Below are positions 249 to 23,530 of a DNA stretch of 28,869 bases, piece by piece. Source of the DNA: Saccoglossus kowalevskii (taxonomy: Eukaryota; Hemichordata; Enteropneusta; Harrimaniidae); the NCBI RefSeq assembly GCF_000003605.2, contig NW_003155738.1, positions 297,585 through 326,453 on the forward strand. The letters run 5' to 3'. The translations under genes were made by a program, and so were the position numbers. Position 1 is the stretch's first letter. Each line of letters starts with the position of its first letter. The notes below the pieces were generated by a model that worked only from the letters and a program-made list of their open reading frames with translations, did not search any database and was not told where the DNA came from.

Positions 249-3200
249 GTTAGTGTTTATATTGCTGTTTTTGCTTTTTTTTGGTATTGTACTGTGTTGC
301 ATGGTCAAATGAGCTTTTCCAATTGATTAAACTTATGAAATAGAGCATGAATGTCACTCAATCCGTGATCGAGAAATAAAGGTTGTGTTGAGACTATAGA
401 GTATTGTATGATAAAGGGTGGGGATTGTGATTGGAGGGTTAAGTGTGTTTAGGTCCAAATAATCAACATGATGTAATATTATTTATTTATTTATTTAAGC
501 ATCATTGTCAGAACAAATTTCATCATGTGTACTACAATCCTGTTGAGACAATCAGTTACCAAAAAGTTTTCATCATATTACATGTAGAATCATTGGTTCA
601 CTTATAATGAGAAGATGACAGTGGAAAGTGTAACACAGGCAGTATCTAATCTAGCACTTCAGTTTGGTGATGATGATGCAGACGTAGGAGCTATGGTAAG
701 TTGTGTTATTCTTGGGGCAGAGTTACATCACAGAACCTTCCATGTTGCTTGAATATGCACCACTGTACAATTATTTCTATGGACTATGCATGAGCTGCTG
801 AATTGATTTCTGTGTGTTTCCAACTGTAGCTCACATATGCCAGTACATCATACATCTTGGAATACATATGCATGCCCATTTTCATGATTCAACTTGGCTG
901 AATCTCTGTTGAATATAGGTGAAATTTTTTTGAGAATGGATTAAAAATGGCAGACTAAAGGCAATTTTGTTTGAATGAATGTGGCTCCAGATGTGCCATG
1001 ACTGATCCTGTGCAAACTTTATATATATATACATCATGTCAGGTGTGCATTTGTTTGATGAGCAGATTTAAGATGACCAAATGGTGACCATTTTAATGGA
1101 ACTGGATCTTGATCAAATATGAATGCATTTTGTTCAGAATGGTACATACATTGGACGTTATAGGACCTTCTGAACACTTTTAGTCAAACTGACGAGCATT
1201 TTGTTGAATTCTGGTTTAGAACATATCTCTGACATGCCATGATTGTTTATGTTCTATTCTATATATTCCTTAAATTTGATAACTCACAGGGACTATGCAA
1301 TTACTAGTTTGATAAGATAATTAACTATGACTTTCTGAGATGCTTAAAATGTTAAGGACTTCTTTTCTTATTGGCTTTCATGTTTACATTTTAGAGTCGG
1401 CCATTTGGTGTAGCGCTGCTTTTTGGAGGAATAGACGACAAAGTACCACAGTTGTGAGTATAGATCTGTAAATTTTACAATAATGAATTTTACTGCTTTG
1501 AACAGCAATAGAATCACATACTTTTTCTACTCAAGTGAAGCACTCCACAGATCATGGGGAAGACACTAGTGATTTTTAAATATGCTGTATGCCAAGGAGT
1601 GTTCATAATTGCAGACTTTTGGTTTGTGAATACCAAATTTGTGCCTAATTTTTTGGATCCAAATGGGGTACTACACATGTGTAAATACATTGTTTACACA
1701 AAATTTTGCTCTATGACGACTGTTGTGCTATTAAAAAAAATTGCAACAAGGTTTGCATTATCAACACACAACAATTATGCAGTAAAATATTGAAATCTGG
1801 GATCAGTAGATATAGGACTAAGATGAATTTTGGTTATCTGCTTTCCATTTATTTTTAGTCTTTTTTTATGAGGTCATCAGTAGTGGATTTTATGCACACA
1901 ATATGTTCTTATGGGAAAAAATCCCTACCAAATTACCAAGGTGAATCACAAAACAAAACAGTGATTTACAATTTCAAATCATTTCATTGACCTAAACTCA
2001 TCTCTTAAAAATCAAAATAATTTAATCTGTCTATGATTTATATTTCCCTGAACTGTTTTTGAGGATGGTTTGTGGTCTTGTTCCAAGTAGGTAATATCTT
2101 TACAAAAGAGCTTACAACTTTTATATTGACAGATACCATTTAGATCCGTCAGGTACCTTTATTGAGTATGATGCAAAGGCAATTGGCTCAGGGTCTGAAG
2201 GTGCACAGTCAGCTCTTCAAGAAGTTTATCATAAGGTATAGTAACATTTTAAAGCAATACTACTTTGAGGCTGTGGGTCATCCAATACATTTTCCTGGGG
2301 CCATCTTGCTGGAAACAAAATGCAACAATTTCTGCATTGTCATCTGTTACTGACGTAGGCTTGTGCATCTTATTTGCAAATTCAGGAAACTGTTCTAATA
2401 CTGTTGACAGTTCTTTCACGTTCAATCATTAGTTAATAACATGTTATTTGTATTACAGTCTATGACGTTAAAAGAGGCCAGTAAATCTTCACTAAGTATC
2501 TTAAAACAAGTGATGGAAGAGAAGCTTAATTCCACAAATGTAGAGGTAATGCATCCTCTGATTTGTCATTTATGTTTGCCCTCTTGTTTCATTACTGATT
2601 ATTAAAAGTATGGAGTGAGTAAAACTACATGGAGCCTGGGAGCACAGTAGAGTATTGTTTGAGACTAGATACAGGAAGCTCAACCATTTCTCAAATTCTA
2701 CCAAGACAGAGTGGTGTTAGACTGTCGACAGTCCCTCTGGCCTTACGTGTGTGTGTTTTTTTTATTAATATTAATATTAATCAAACGCCGTAGGCGTTTG
2801 CGAAATGCCGAAGGCATTTCAAGCGAGGGCCGTAAGGCCCGAGAGACTGTTATAGCCTGCTGCGCCACCACTCGCCACTGTAGAGAAATTCTCCTGTAGC
2901 GTACCATCATGATTGACAGGCAGAGTGATGTCATAAAAAATGCTAACCAATCACAAGTCACGCAGTCCCAGGTCAACAGGAAGTAAAAAAAAATTGAGCC
3001 ACCAGACGACGCAATAGTTTATAAACTTCGTTCAGTGCACTGCTTTGAAGATGGCTTGTGGCGATGCAGTTTCGCTGGCGTTGAAGAAACTTGGGTATGA
3101 AAGTATTCGACCAATCCAGCGACAAGTCATTGATGGCTATTTGCAGAAGAAAGATGTTTTTCTCACAGCGCCGACTGGCAGTGGCAAGTCGCTGACTTAT

Positions 3201-5115
3201 GAAATGGCGCCATTCCTGCTGGACAGTATCGGTGACTTTGCCGACGAACCATCATCCATTATTTTGATTGTATCGCCACTGGTCGCCCTGATGCAAGAAC
3301 AGGTAGCCCGACTCACGAAAATCGGGGTAAAAGCAGCATCTTTATGTTCGAGCGATAGTTTAGTGAAACAGGGTCTTCTAGACGGGAAATTCAACTTGGT
3401 GTTTTTCATTAAAACCCATTGATATACATTGCCTGGACCATTTCAAGTAGTGCACCATTCATTCATTATTATCGACAAATTTACATTTTTGTTTTTTAAT
3501 GAATAAACAGAAAATTGTTGTTTATAGCAGTGATTCATTTAATAGTTGAAAAGAAAAAAAGAGGGGGGTATCTGCTATGCACACATAAATTAACAGGAAA
3601 CAAATATAATACAAAAATGACTGAATATATATTTAACATTAAATTAATAATTTAAATAATGGATATCAATTACATAATCGCTTAACTCACCGTGACATCG
3701 TAATTTGGTAGGATGTTGCTAAACTGAGAAGATGTTACACGCGGGTTGTCACCATTTGAAACTTCGGCTAGGACGGCTGTATCATCAATCATCACCAGAG
3801 AGCGTTTTGACGACTTTAGTTGTTCCTGGTTGCGTAATCGTTTCGTCACTTCGACTCTAGACCTGGACAACAGTTTATTTTTCGTCGATGTGTACAACTT
3901 CCGCCATTCTGTCAATTTATTGACGACAGTCTGCACCTTATCAGCACAAGATCGGCAAGAAACATCAGTGTTCAGATGTCGGTCAATTTCCTCTCCTATC
4001 ACCACCTCAATGTTGTTACATACGACGGTTTTCGACGAGCCTTTAAATAACTTTCGCCGACATTCTGCATCCTTTTTACCAGAGAATTCTCTTCCGCATA
4101 GAATACAAATTAGCTCCTTGGATCGGGGGGAAATGCACAATTTACTCACTACTTTCGTCGGAGTTTTACTGGGCGAAATGTTGTCGTACATCATGAGACA
4201 CCAACGCACTCTTCCTTTGTTTAAAATTAGATAACTCGCGTTCGCAACTTGTAGTTCTGGATAATACTTGGCAGAAAACGATCTATACTCGGCGAGACGA
4301 TCAAAGTCATGCGTGACATAAAAAAAAACCGCGATTTGACCTTTGCATAACAGTTTAACTCCGCCCATATGCAAATTATTACTATGTCATCGAGATGCAT
4401 GCATAATTAATAGCAAGGCCAGTCCTGCAGGCTATAACAGTCTCTCGGGCCTTACGGCCCGCGCTTGAAATGCCTTCGGCATTTCGCAAACGCCTACGGC
4501 GTTTGATTAATATTAATAATAAAAAAAAAACACACACACACGTAAGGCCAGAGGGACTGTCGACAGTCTAAGTGGTGTGTCTGTTGCATGTTGTATAATG
4601 AATCTCGAGATGTGTGTAATACAGATTCATTTCTTTGTGTTTTGTTAACTTCAGTCGTGAATTTGATTAATTCCATCTATGGTAAACACTTCAAATTTAT
4701 TTTTGGTCTGAGACCCACAAATTGAACAAAATAAAAAAAAAATGCCACTGCAACAGAAAATTCATAGCAGTTTGGGTTACTAGTGAACTCCATAATGCCT
4801 CATGCTTGAACTTATAATGGCATGTTTGCAGTGTTGATACTAGCACTCGTTTGAATTCCCATCTTGGTTTGTTTGTAGCCATTTTGGGCTGTCACATAGT
4901 GTTGTCTATGGTGATTTTTAATTAATAAATTAGCATAAATTAATGCTTGATTACATCACCATTCAAATGCAGAACACACACGACAATGACATCACATTTA
5001 CAAATTGTGTAATATTACTCTTCTGTTTGCATTGCAGATGGCAACTGTCACACCAGAGAATTACTTTCATATGCTATCAAAAGAAGAAATTGAAGAAGTG
5101 ATTGCACAGTTATAA
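181..5115 (+). CDS. PSMA5: PSMA5, 20S proteasome subunit alpha type-5 (partial, C-terminal 166 codons in six exons)
   Basis: Proteasome alpha subunits form the outer rings of the 20S core and gate substrate entry; they act in cytosol and nucleus and are not themselves proteolytic. The six exons (181-248, 588-695, 1395-1453, 2133-2235, 2459-2545, 5038-5115) join in one frame through GT-AG introns. The product reads like vertebrate PSMA5 from its residue 76 onward: [78 protein letters not shown] and the ending [16 protein letters not shown]. The missing ~75 residues plus these 166 equal the human length of 241. The acidic stretch [10 protein letters not shown] matches the alpha-5-specific loop and separates it from other alpha subunits. 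The window opens inside an intron, so promoter and start codon are absent. The intron 2546-5037 hosts a DNA transposon. Confidence 0.96.
478..499. repeat. Short ATTT simple repeat
   Basis: Four to five uninterrupted ATTT units lie in a PSMA5 intron. This is ordinary microsatellite sequence. Confidence 0.8.
588..695 (+). CDS. PSMA5: PSMA5 exon encoding [10 protein letters not shown]...DVGAM
   Basis: The exon has 36 whole codons between acceptor catgtag and donor gtaagt. NHWFTYNE and [17 protein letters not shown] are near-identical to vertebrate alpha-5, followed by the acidic DDDAD loop. Confidence 0.95.
1395..1453 (+). CDS. PSMA5: PSMA5 exon encoding [19 protein letters not shown]
   Basis: The acceptor is tttacattttag and the donor is gtgagt. 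The exon ends two bases into a Leu codon that the next exon completes. SRPFGVALL is the conserved alpha-subunit strand motif. Confidence 0.95.
2133..2235 (+). CDS. PSMA5: PSMA5 exon encoding YHLDPSGTF...LQEVYHK
   Basis: The first base completes the split Leu codon. The rest reads [20 protein letters not shown], then [14 protein letters not shown], up to donor gtatag. DPSG and the AIG-GSEGAQ loop are family hallmarks. Confidence 0.95.
2459..2545 (+). CDS. PSMA5: PSMA5 exon encoding [20 protein letters not shown]...
   Basis: The exon has 29 codons between acceptor tattacag and donor gtaatg. SMTLKEA and [12 protein letters not shown] match the helical C-terminal part of alpha-5. The following intron is the one invaded by the transposon at 2718-4570. 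Confidence 0.94.
2710..2717. repeat. Left target-site duplication AGTGGTGT
   Basis: This 8-bp word directly abuts the left terminal repeat and is repeated perfectly at 4571-4578 beyond the right one, as expected of a staggered 8-bp cut by a DNA transposase. Confidence 0.88.
2718..2860 (+). repeat. Left terminal inverted repeat with four palindromes
   Basis: The sequence matches the reverse complement of 4427-4570 except for the length of the GT/T tract, the number of TTAATA units and one base near 2826. Perfect or near-perfect hairpins stand in a row: ACTGTCGACAGT at the tip, a 19-mer at 2782-2800 (CAAACGCC/GGCGTTTG), a 19-mer at 2802-2820 (GAAATGCC/GGCATTTC) and a 14-mer at 2827-2840 (GGGCC/GGCCC). 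Confidence 0.92.
3051..3422 (+). pseudogene. RecQ-like SF2 helicase, N-terminal fragment (123 codons) inside the transposon
   Basis: RecQ helicases are 3'-5' DNA unwinding ATPases. The fragment shows the RecQ order of motifs: motif 0 around residues 14-27 ([14 protein letters not shown]), Walker A/motif I at 39-47 (TAPTGSGKS), and motif Ia at 73-85 ([13 protein letters not shown]). The reading continues normally to DGKFNLVFF (119), then turns into IKTH and a stop, just before the expected Walker B/DExH box. Motifs II-VI, the RQC and HRDC regions are absent, so it cannot be an active helicase. The ATG at 3051 is chosen because no earlier ATG keeps frame; a TATAAA lies at 3020-3025. The gene runs inward from the left repeat. 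It is a transposon cargo or component rather than a host gene; the break fits an internal deletion. Confidence 0.85.
3423..3681. other. AT-rich centre of the transposon, no coding signal
   Basis: The stretch lies between the two truncated reading frames. It is AT-rich with many short T and A tracts, and neither a helicase continuation nor a transposase motif is visible on either strand. It probably spans the internal deletion junction. Confidence 0.6.
3682..4368 (-). pseudogene. ZAD-like zinc-binding protein of the transposon, 3'-truncated first exon
   Basis: The open frame reads inward from the right repeat. From the ATG at 4368 it gives 228 residues; a tandem ATG at 4194 ([10 protein letters not shown]) is an alternative and perhaps better start, because the zinc-binding part follows it directly. 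Numbered from 4368, Cys pairs sit at 88/91 (CILC) and 138/141 (CRSC) with Cys 103 and 117 between. This C-x2-C...C-x2-C spacing recalls ZAD-type domains, which pair as N-terminal dimer or DNA-binding modules. A Lys/Arg-rich helical stretch follows (about 146-192). The frame closes at DVT-VS-stop, but the nucleotides at that point form a strong splice donor (gtgagt at 3685-3690). It is therefore probably a first exon whose downstream exons are deleted. It may be the DNA-binding N-terminus of the transposase; that is inference. Confidence 0.6.
4427..4570 (-). repeat. Right terminal inverted repeat
   Basis: This is the reverse complement of 2718-2860 with the same series of hairpins; the homopolymer/GT tract is a few bases different. 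It ends with GACAGTCTA directly before the target duplication. Confidence 0.92.
4571..4578. repeat. Right target-site duplication AGTGGTGT
   Basis: Perfect copy of 2710-2717. Confidence 0.88.
5038..5115 (+). CDS. PSMA5: PSMA5 last coding exon, stop TAA
   Basis: The acceptor gcattgcag precedes [20 protein letters not shown] and VIAQL, then the stop TAA at 5113-5115. FHM-(S/T)KEE(I/L)EEVI is the conserved alpha-5 tail. The ATG at 5038 is an internal Met, not a start. Confidence 0.94.
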   Translation: MATVTPENYFHMLSKEEIEEVIAQL

Positions 5116-7793: not shown

Positions 7794-8179
7794 ATATTTT
7801 CCATAGCAACCAACATGTAAGATACCTGCAGACCATTTTCCGAACAATTTTAATGTATTTTTATATCTGCTTTAGCTTTAGTATTCATCATATCTTCACT
7901 CTGGAGCAAAAGTAAACTGCACATTGTTTTATAATGGTTGCTAGGTAATCCATTTACCTGATTATAACACCATGTTGGCTTTTCTAACCCATCAATTATT
8001 GTTGGCCTATTTTTATAGAACAATAATATAAATAGGTAAAGATTATCGTGTGAGGAAGTGTGCACAAGAGATACCAGACAAAGCTCTTCTGGCGAAATTA
8101 AGTGCAGTAGATCTCCCTTATCTCCCTTGAGGCAAAATACCATGTAAGATGCCTCACCAATTTGTACAACAGATTTGGT

Positions 8180-10503
8180 CAGATTCTAGTAATTTGTGTC
8201 GATCTGTTCGCAAAACTGGAACAACTACAATGGTCCATGGACAGCCAGTATGAAGAGGACAAGTTTGTAATCCTTCTTGGTGGACTCCACACGTTGCAAC
8301 AAAGTCCTGGGTCATTGGCAGGAAGGGAGAAGATTGGTTTAAGCCTTTCAAGAGGCAGAACTTGCCACTCGTGGAATTGCAGAATCTTTCCTCAATGCAT
8401 CCCATGTCACTCGGACCTGGCATGCCCATCAAGTAGCTGCATGCACACTGTATATTCTCCTGAAGAATGCATATGATGTGTATGCCACCAACATAGAAGG
8501 CCCTGCAGAAAGTTTCATCATGTGGTGCACACGTCGGAAGACTGACAGTCCACAATTCCTGTACTGGTACAGAAACCTTGAATTGGAACTGCTTGCCTTG
8601 GCATTTGTACGTCCATTGCGTACTGGTGACTTTGATTTGTACAAAGATACACTGACTAAATTGACACCTTGGTCTCAACCACACCTATTACGCCCATTGG
8701 ATGTTCACATTCACAAAAAAGACAAGTGTAGCCTGGAAGGCATCCGTTCTCATGTTGCTTGAGAATTTCGGCACGCCAAGTTTGCATGGCCAAATCTTTG
8801 AGAAAATTCCCTCTCATCGCCATTGATCATGGCCATGAGCAAAATAATGGTGTGATGAAGGGTGAAGGGGAAGTCATTGGACTGACACAGGATGCCGAAG
8901 CATCAATGCATCATTGATGAGCAGTAGCAGTGCTAGAACTTGTCCGTGTCATATCTGAATTGGAGTCATCCATGGTAGGGAAACGAGAGAGTCCCAGCCA
9001 GAGAAACCACCATGAGCAAACTGATGGTACCCAGAAGCAATTTTCTACACAGGTCGATATGCTGGTCAGAGTAATCAAGGGCATAGGGAGTCCATTTGAA
9101 AAAGAAAGCCAAGATCTTCTGAGACTGCATTCAAAGGACATCATGGACAAGCAGTCAATCGAGTGCCTCACTACACTACAATCAAAAGGTCAAGAACAGT
9201 ATGGAACATTTTTGGACGAGTGACTCCGGCCAACAAAGTAGTATTGTTCAAGCACACAAAGAAAGCAGGGACACATGTCAATCTTCTCAAAAGCGAATCA
9301 TCTCTCTTTGCAAGACTGTATGTTGCATCCCAGACAAGAGATGGTGATTTGGACAATTTCTTCAGCTCAATTTTCACCATCCCTTTCTTCATATAAACAA
9401 TTACATCAGGAAAAAAAATCAGATCTCATTGGCTGTCTTGAACAACATGTCCAGTCTCCATGTCATTCAAGGCCAGAGCAGATGTGAGCATCATGGATGG
9501 TGCTGTCCTCATGAACATTCTTAGACCTGGAGGATGAAAAAAATTTGGCGACTACGCTGCAAATGTGTTTGTCCCACACATCACTAGAGAACAGAATAAA
9601 GCTCAATGAGTAGATATTGTGTGGGATCAATACTTTTACAACAGCCTAAAAAAAGCGTGCTATGGTCCTAGCCAACGAGGCATGTTGAGGTGTCCAGCTC
9701 CATACCAAAGAACTGGCAGTAGTTTCTTTGAGTGAATAGCAGCAGTCGGACAGGGGCTTCCACAAGATCCTTGTTCGGACAGTAGACACCAATGTAGTTG
9801 TGTTAGCAGTAGTGACTGTCCAGCAGCTAGGAAGGATAGACCTCTGGATTCCATTCGGAAGTGCCAAGAACTTTCACTACATCCTGGCCCATGAGATAAG
9901 TGCCTCCCTTGGCCCACAAAAATCTTTGGTACTTCCGGTGACCCATACTTTCACCGCTGTGACACTGTGTTCCAATTTGCCCAAGTTGGAAAGAAGACTG
10001 CATGGAAAGTGTGGGAGACAAATGATGAACTCACTGGAGCCTTCTATGAACTGCACAGTGCACCAGAACAAATATTTGAAGAGACTGAGTCTTCCCTAGA
10101 GTACTTCACCTTCTCTATGACAGACAGCAACAAGTACCTCCATCACGGACCATCAACAAAGCTAGAAAGCTTCTTTTCACATGAAAAGGGCTTCAGATGT
10201 CAGCCCTTCCTCCTACCAAGGCGGCCTTACAGCAACATATCAGGAATGCAGCATTGCAAGGTCCGGCACTATTGGGGAAATACTACTATACCATATCGCC
10301 AGTTGCCTTCCCCTTCTGAGTGGGGATGGACTTGCCTAGAACAGTGGAGGCCCTTGTAGACAAACTTACTAGAAGCAAGTGCATCCTGCTCAGAGTTGCT
10401 GAAGTGTCAATGTAGGAGCAGATGTAGAGACTGCAAATGTGTACGAGCACACTTAAAATGCATCGTTTATTGCACATGCACAGGACATTGTGACAATGCC
10501 TGA
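8180..10503 (+). pseudogene. Pseudogene of a long uncharacterised CXC (tesmin/TSO1-like)-domain protein family
   Basis: All three plus-strand frames successively show one protein family that I recognise from invertebrate and fish genomes as uncharacterised, multi-copy proteins. Landmarks in order are EDKFVILLGGLH (about 8255), SHVTRTWHAHQ (8398), FLYWYRNLELELLALAFVR (8557), AIDHGHEQNN (8820), HEQTDGTQKQF (9011), KDIMDKQ (9137), LFARLYVASQTRDGDLDNFF (9306), PKNWQ (9700), TVDTNVVVLAV (9780), HTFT/CDTV (9944), GKKTAW (9984), LPSPSEWGW (10300) and a Cys-rich end with KCQCRSRC at 10402 and CKCVRAHLKC after it, stopping at 10501-10503. Frame changes occur near 8350, 8900, 9225, 9740 and 9955, with internal stops near 8760, 8799, 9607, 9727 and 10357. 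A block between PKNWQ and TVDTNV is missing. Function of the family is not established; CXC regions bind DNA in other proteins. Confidence 0.75.
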
Positions 10504-13648: not shown

Positions 13649-23108
<9,460 letters not shown>

Positions 23109-23413: not shown

Positions 23414-23440
23414 TTTTAAATAAATGAATAAACAAGTGAA

Positions 23441-23527
<87 letters not shown>

Positions 23528-23530
23528 ATA
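23414..23530. repeat. (AAAT)n microsatellite upstream of NAMPT
   Basis: More than twenty uninterrupted TAAA units follow a short degenerate start. Confidence 0.97.

Follow-up and report, generated by a model that had tools for sequence, protein, structure and literature searches.

Which kind of cut-and-paste transposon carries a RecQ helicase into the hemichordate genome is the question raised by an element of 1853 bp in Saccoglossus kowalevskii. The element lies at positions 2718-4570 of a stretch of 28,869 nucleotides, which was analysed as a whole and is called here the window (contig NW_003155738.1, positions 297,585 to 326,453 of the forward strand). As delimited by BLAST and by reading of the sequence, it is a whole element and a non-autonomous deletion derivative, bearing the start of a RecQ-type helicase and, convergent to it, an exon with a putative zinc module (hereafter the zinc exon). 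The evidence given below makes it probable that this is an internally deleted cut-and-paste transposon of the helicase-carrying Academ type, either AcademH or an immediate sister lineage.

A deletion derivative with clean termini and two convergent gene starts

The element is bounded by terminal inverted repeats (TIRs) of 143 bp on the left (2718-2860, plus orientation) and 144 nt on the right (4427-4570, minus orientation, from BLAST self-alignment), confirming the clean termini described in an earlier sequence-only reading of this DNA. It is flanked by an exact direct repeat of 8 bp, AGTGGTGT, at 2710-2717 and 4571-4578. The left tip, TAGACTGTCGACAGTC, contains a 14-bp palindrome. In the BLAST alignment of the two TIRs, 141 of 145 positions are identical (one base beyond each tip being counted in), and the TIRs differ by a gap and two changed bases within a T/AT run and, elsewhere, by a single A/C difference. 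As they are otherwise the same, the insertion is probably recent. When up to 3 mismatches are allowed, the 16-base tip is matched 8 times in the window, whereas 100 dinucleotide shuffles gave a mean of 0.06. Four of the 8 are palindromic tips read again from the opposite strand, and four of the 8 fall in a second short element at 21121-21441. Folded as single-stranded DNA, the left TIR is predicted to form nested hairpins (z -6.86), and none of 200 dinucleotide shuffles was equally stable. The start codons of the two convergent frames lie about 190 and 230 bp inward of the terminal repeats.

The plus-strand frame (3051-3404) corresponds to the N-terminal 118 codons of a RecQ-family helicase with motifs 0, I and Ia, as indicated by profile and structure-chain matches and by alignment to relatives. 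These motifs, called unmistakable when only the letters had been read, are recovered by NCBIfam TIGR00614 (E 1.8e-17, under that model's full-length cut-off, as expected since the query is a fragment), by Pfam DEAD (E 4.8e-14) and by the best solved chain, 1oyw (E 4.8e-11). In bit score the fragment reaches 46 with E. coli RecQ and 28-38 with chains of RecQ1, RecQ4, RecQ5, WRN and BLM. The window copy retains only motifs 0-Ia, and it is together with its relatives that it displays what defines the RecQ family, namely motif 0, the superfamily II (SF2) motifs and the Zn-binding cysteines. After codon 118 the frame continues into unrelated A+T-rich sequence, with a stop at 3420-3422, and the gene is therefore cut off. 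The deletion scar is expected in this A+T-rich interval (3405-3684, 25% GC), whose exact junction is not placed because the window family has no readable full-length copy.

On the minus strand, the zinc exon (3691-4194, 168 codons) is the probable first exon of the convergent gene, judging from its open frame, its genome homologues and their alignment, and it contains a putative zinc module of the form CxxC-x46-CxxC. The open frame spans 234 codons from stop to stop and 170 amino acids from the ATG at 4194, which we chose as the start although an earlier ATG is present. It ends at GTGAGT (3685-3690, minus strand), a canonical 5' splice donor that follows the exon immediately and would be translated as V-S-stop if unspliced, and for this reason we read the frame as a first exon with a putative splice donor at its end and not as a small complete gene. 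Thus, of the two convergent genes formerly described inside the element, both open frames are real, the minus-strand one having homologues in the same genome, but the latter reads as a first exon rather than a complete gene. The zinc exon and five homologues share the two CxxC pairs and invariant SPR.K, F.G, E..D..L and CRxC positions, and adding shorter pieces to the alignment leaves no invariant column. No significant Pfam, NCBIfam or PDB match was obtained for the exon, and the best Pfam match of the five relatives (E 0.0037) is to another domain of unknown function. The minus-strand product had been labelled ZAD-like; with the profile zf-AD, which we take to be the domain meant, neither the exon nor the five relatives matched at E up to 1, a search in which HMMER filters could hide a weak match, and the label is best given up, the likeness being one of resemblance only.

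Rfam at gathering thresholds gave no match, and no relative of the element DNA was found among phages. The RecQ piece matched 22 phage records, all below 60% identity (28-39% among the 20 matches listed), which we take to be ordinary RecQ. Neither frame had relatives in viral contigs, where a single exact match to the 16-base tip was taken as chance; the minus-strand frame had none in plasmids, and P0001 had none in bacterial and archaeal genome contigs, a scan of which the RecQ piece was not part.

Shortened copies and long relatives in the same genome

We searched the assembly containing the window (572 Mb), in which all counts of places are lower bounds. With the window copy included, the window TIR was found at at least 40 places (40 of 57 candidates scored), the helicase fragment at at least 41 (100 of 100 scored) and the zinc exon at at least 41 (70 of 70 scored), many of the zinc-exon places being interrupted by stops. 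Exact copies of the 16-base tip number 137, some of them being two readings of one palindrome, whereas the reversed control has 2; among 100 places listed there were 11 facing tip pairs, of 186-1132 bp. The nearest copies, on contigs C1309 (888 bp), C3219 (794 bp) and C2563 (left tip absent), are about 96-99% identical and have differing internal deletions. Because the deletion junction 243|1302 is common to C3219 and C3953, which occupy different sites, the sequences indicate that a shortened copy has moved after gene loss.

A long copy with exactly the 143-bp termini was not readable in the assembly, since C3896, C3048 and C3953 run into N and C4622 ends with its contig. The proposal to look for long copies with the same termini was therefore answered by relatives, which carry the helicase beyond motif Ia together with a transposase-like gene, but not by the window's own family; the earlier view of the window copy as an internal-deletion derivative is supported. 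One of them, at C1306:33686-44589, can be followed from end to end over 10,904 bp, including 460 N, with perfect inverted repeats of 105 bp starting TAGTCTCGC and a 9-bp duplication, AGAATCATA. Its plus strand encodes both halves of the RecQ core (DEAD, 1.6e-17; Helicase_C, 2.7e-17), and its minus strand a convergent gene in several pieces, one of which matches Pfam PF20231, DUF6589, at 3.9e-29. The same pair is present on C3659, with DEAD and Helicase_C pieces and two DUF6589 pieces (1.9e-11 and 1e-7), and convergent RecQ and DUF6589 matches also occur on C14 and C1561. By alignment, the RecQ relatives contain a DEAH box, further motifs and Zn-type cysteines, and all 26 PDB matches of the C3659 helicase piece are named WRN, BLM, Q1, RecQ or ATP-dependent DNA helicase. 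In the whole genome, DUF6589 gave 11 matches on 9 contigs, and in four of the nine (C1306, C3659, C1561 and C14) a RecQ match lies within about 6 kb in convergent orientation, where our own arithmetic from 41 RecQ places in 572 Mb gives a chance expectation of almost none.

Inspection by eye of the DUF6589 genes revealed GDN-D, GGD-LT-ER and a later E as candidate D, D and E positions, and the segment separating the second from the third candidate site has a C2H2 match that is weak and below cut-off (E 0.013 and 0.08), much as a DDE transposase with an inserted zinc finger might look. The gene probably encodes a DDE transposase, and the zinc exon probably forms the N-terminus of such a transposase, as suggested by its position only. 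Separately, the N-terminal half of the C3659 DUF6589 gene (L085, within C3659:8616-10376) contains a tandemly repeated stretch of MVQPDVGPVSQSTIPSN units, and at L053 (C14:274720-275200) pieces that by eye resemble a retrotransposon reverse transcriptase adjoin the RecQ and DUF6589 element.

The gene pairing extends to more distant loci. From the 41 zinc-exon places 20 loci were cut, four of them being window-family copies and the other 16 forming L069-L084. Of these 16, 12 contain a RecQ fragment (E up to 1e-4), in all 12 convergent by coordinates, and four (L071, L077, L080 and L083) have the zinc exon without it; the RecQ query was stitched from L070, L072 and L074 and is circular for these, leaving 9 of 13 others as independent cases, the match of L082 is borderline (9.7e-5), and in L073 the two gene pieces are separated by N. 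Both the zinc exon and RecQ are also present at L040, L045 and L058. From the 12 convergent loci and these three, the sequences indicate that the RecQ start and the zinc-exon start belong together across subfamilies.

The tips and the target duplications were then compared across loci. Of 28 loci considered, 2 were set aside for N; in 14 of the other 26, a tip of the form TAG[AT]CT with C, G or T as the next base lies 240-480 bp upstream of RecQ codon 1, whereas control windows taken from these loci had one in 13 of 239 cases (Fisher p 1.6e-9). The distance range was chosen after viewing the data, and the loci are not all independent. A scan of 89 sequences, several of them overlapping, for pairs of tips that face each other and are flanked by exact duplications of 8-11 bp recovered 9 distinct elements, eight with 9 bp and the window copy alone with 8 bp, and none was found in 20 mononucleotide-shuffled sets. 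Among the elements seen, 9 bp is the rule and 8 bp the exception. The 8-bp duplication that had been read as a property of the element is exact at the window copy but is not what most of its relatives show; it may be a genuine duplication of 8 bp or one of 9 bp from which a base was lost.

Classification of the element

In the following, PMC articles are cited for the available passages of their text. The sequence-only reading could not place the element in a named superfamily. That such an element falls outside the named superfamilies is not supported, since cut-and-paste transposons carrying RecQ or other helicases are already known: AcademH, with a helicase and duplications of 9 or 10 bp (PMC10045372), and KolobokH, with RecQ (PMC9587614). 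AcademX, by comparison, makes duplications of 3 or 4 bp, and the duplication length is tied to the encoded helicase or nuclease (PMC10045372). DEAD and Helicase_C domains are ascribed to AcademH, KolobokH or Helitron (PMC10799480), and a RecQ helicase in Academ is stated by PMC3627910, which cites PMC3520738; a word search of the text of PMC3520738 found neither RecQ nor helicase.

AcademH is the most likely assignment and the best fit, on helicase and duplication length. The superfamily II helicase is encoded by the element, as the RecQ N-terminus in the window and as DEAD plus Helicase_C on C1306 and C3659, and the duplications are of 9 bp in eight of nine distinct elements, the window having 8 bp. 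The intron-split genes and the NAPRTase-family exon of this 572-Mb genome are in keeping with an animal host; the title of the AcademH reference (Kojima 2020) names animals and fungi. The comparison covered helicase and duplication length, and membership is not proven. In contrast to the available passages on AcademH, the window copy has 8 bp; those passages mention neither a zinc exon nor long TIRs rich in hairpins.

Several points weigh against placing the element in or beside AcademH with the gene content proposed here. The linked transposase can be called Academ-type only putatively. The window duplication of 8 bp, and that of C3219 (8 bp with one mismatch, missed by the exact scan), fall outside the 9-10 bp stated for AcademH, and two of the nine duplications were scored at weak tip identity (L069, 10/16; L037, 12/16). 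The combination of long TIRs and 9-bp duplications is also reminiscent of MuDR. As to the genes, five of the nine DUF6589 contigs have no nearby RecQ match, and the second candidate site of C1306 reads GGQLT where C3659 and C14 have GGD; because an acidic position is expected there, the C1306 copy may be inactive. The zinc-exon and DUF6589 matches in the genome have no contig in common, the zinc exon was not seen in the readable part of C1306, and the N-terminal domain of the C1306 DUF6589 gene matches only itself, so the link between zinc exon and DUF6589 is one of position and orientation.

The main rival is a separate, undescribed superfamily in which RecQ was acquired independently, as in KolobokH, and which is characterized by RecQ with DUF6589, 9-bp duplications and TAGACT tips, a possibility that we regard as real though rather unlikely. 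DUF6589 is a domain of unknown function whose name was not found in the literature searched, some copies duplicate 8 bp, the zinc exon has no significant Pfam family match, and KolobokH shows that RecQ can occur in more than one superfamily (PMC9587614). On the other hand, a helicase with 9-bp duplications is what the literature describes for AcademH (PMC10045372), and the silence on DUF6589 says little, because Pfam accessions are rarely printed.

KolobokH itself is alike in having a RecQ helicase within a DDD/E cut-and-paste transposon, and in the rhodophyte element Kolobok-1_CCri the RecQ helicase even lies on the strand opposite the transposase, although this is a Kolobok element from a distant host (PMC9587614). 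Kolobok, however, makes TTAA duplications, and the available text reports KolobokH only from fungi (PMC9587614), whereas here the helicase is a separate convergent gene and the duplications are of 8-9 bp and of mixed sequence. A Kolobok transposase with RecQ was thus rejected on the 4-bp TTAA duplication, and we give it next to no chance.

The helicase could instead be a captured fragment, carried as cargo by a MuDR, hAT, P, Merlin or Zisupton element. MuDR elements typically have long TIRs with 9 bp, and P elements make 8 bp. The window's 8 bp is also that of Zisupton and most hAT elements (PMC12730594) and of Merlin, and MuDR/IS256 range from 4 to 10 bp (PMC10045372). Yet in many families a RecQ sequence, at 34-57% identity, stands close to this kind of tip, a pattern that a single capture would not produce, and the linked gene matches DUF6589, its Pfam matches (E 0.5 or lower) including no MuDR or hAT transposase domain. 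The genome search likewise found no host RecQ gene close to the fragment: the best-scoring match outside the family is 53-55% identical and adjoins TIR-like DNA, and shorter matches reach at most 57%. The exact match to a host gene that would have marked a captured exon was therefore not there; matches of 53-57% speak against capture, which we reject, and the helicase looks native to the element. Zisupton and hAT were rejected as well, 8 bp not being the rule among the distinct elements, and Zisupton/KDZ is alike only in the window's 8 bp, the available KDZ descriptions being without a helicase (PMC12730594), while the relatives here have mostly 9 bp and DUF6589 as the linked gene. Overall, the cargo explanation is highly improbable.

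A further explanation concerns the short copies alone, which might be kept for a small regulator: if the zinc exon were read through its donor, a predicted 170-amino-acid repressor binding the tips would result, comparable to the KP product of P elements. Many deletion copies do retain both gene starts, and the window exon is fully open. Deletion derivatives, however, keep their ends for mobility, so that gene starts come along, and many zinc-exon places carry stops, which makes this explanation very unlikely. The probable reading thus remains that of a shortened helicase-carrying transposon of the AcademH type or its immediate sister lineage.

Other features of the window

The intron that holds the element is the last one of a PSMA5-like gene and lies between exons at about 2460-2547 and 5037-5110; from the translated exons (about 2110-2220, 2460-2547 and 5037-5110), the host gene is presumably that of proteasome subunit alpha-5. 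The second element (321 bp, 21121-21441), delimited by tip matches and self-alignment, has tips of the same kind, TAGACTGTCAACAGTG and TAGACTGTCGACAGTA, and flanks, AGTGACACC and AATGACACC, that are identical at 8 of 9 positions. It appears to have inserted into a minisatellite; repeat units of about 20 and 51-52 bp occupy 21470-21944, and similar ones 21032-21123. Because the element lies between units whose sequence resembles its flanks, the flanking repeat is weak evidence of a duplication. Another minisatellite, at 14789-15901, has 22.9 copies of a 48-bp unit with 85% matches, and a (TAAA)n run of 28.5 units occupies 23417-23530. An exon of the NAPRTase family lies on the minus strand at 17050-17382 (Pfam, 6.4e-13) and presumably belongs to NAMPT. 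The region 8111-10359 is richer in G+C and contains broken protein-like frames in plus orientation, such as ILVRTVDTNVVVLAV; two pieces of it that were scanned gave no Pfam match, and we take it to resemble a multicopy invertebrate gene, perhaps the remains of another transposon.

Proposed mechanism and significance

We propose that a complete element would be about 11 kb long and would encode, from two convergent genes starting just inside opposite ends, a RecQ helicase and a spliced, DUF6589-type and probably DDE transposase. The transposase supplied by intact copies would bind the tips, the zinc exon with its two CxxC pairs serving as N-terminal DNA-binding module, then cut and insert with a stagger of 9 bp, sometimes 8 bp. 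The helicase may open or tidy the DNA where the ends are structured or where excision leaves a gap. Since both genes of the window copy are truncated, its movement would have been driven in trans or would have preceded the deletion.

As for structured ends, the C1306 TIR folds at -32.8 kcal/mol, against -16.2 (standard deviation 2.9) for 200 mononucleotide shuffles, and the 150 nt after the tip at other loci reach -6.3 to -20 kcal/mol (no shuffle control). Strong hairpin ends are thus not universal, and for this reason the opening of hairpins by the helicase is a guess. A stronger proposal, in which RecQ and DUF6589 define a distinct superfamily of large DNA transposons, some with TIRs forming nested hairpins that RecQ unwinds for the transposase, appears unlikely to us.

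One genome thus holds an end-to-end helicase-carrying transposon of 10.9 kb, with a gap of 460 bases, together with many shortened copies, and such a set would permit testing whether the helicase is required for movement. The tie between Pfam DUF6589 and transposons suggests a function for this domain. If it is true that the helicase acts on hairpin-rich ends, the question why cut-and-paste transposons repeatedly carry helicases would become testable.
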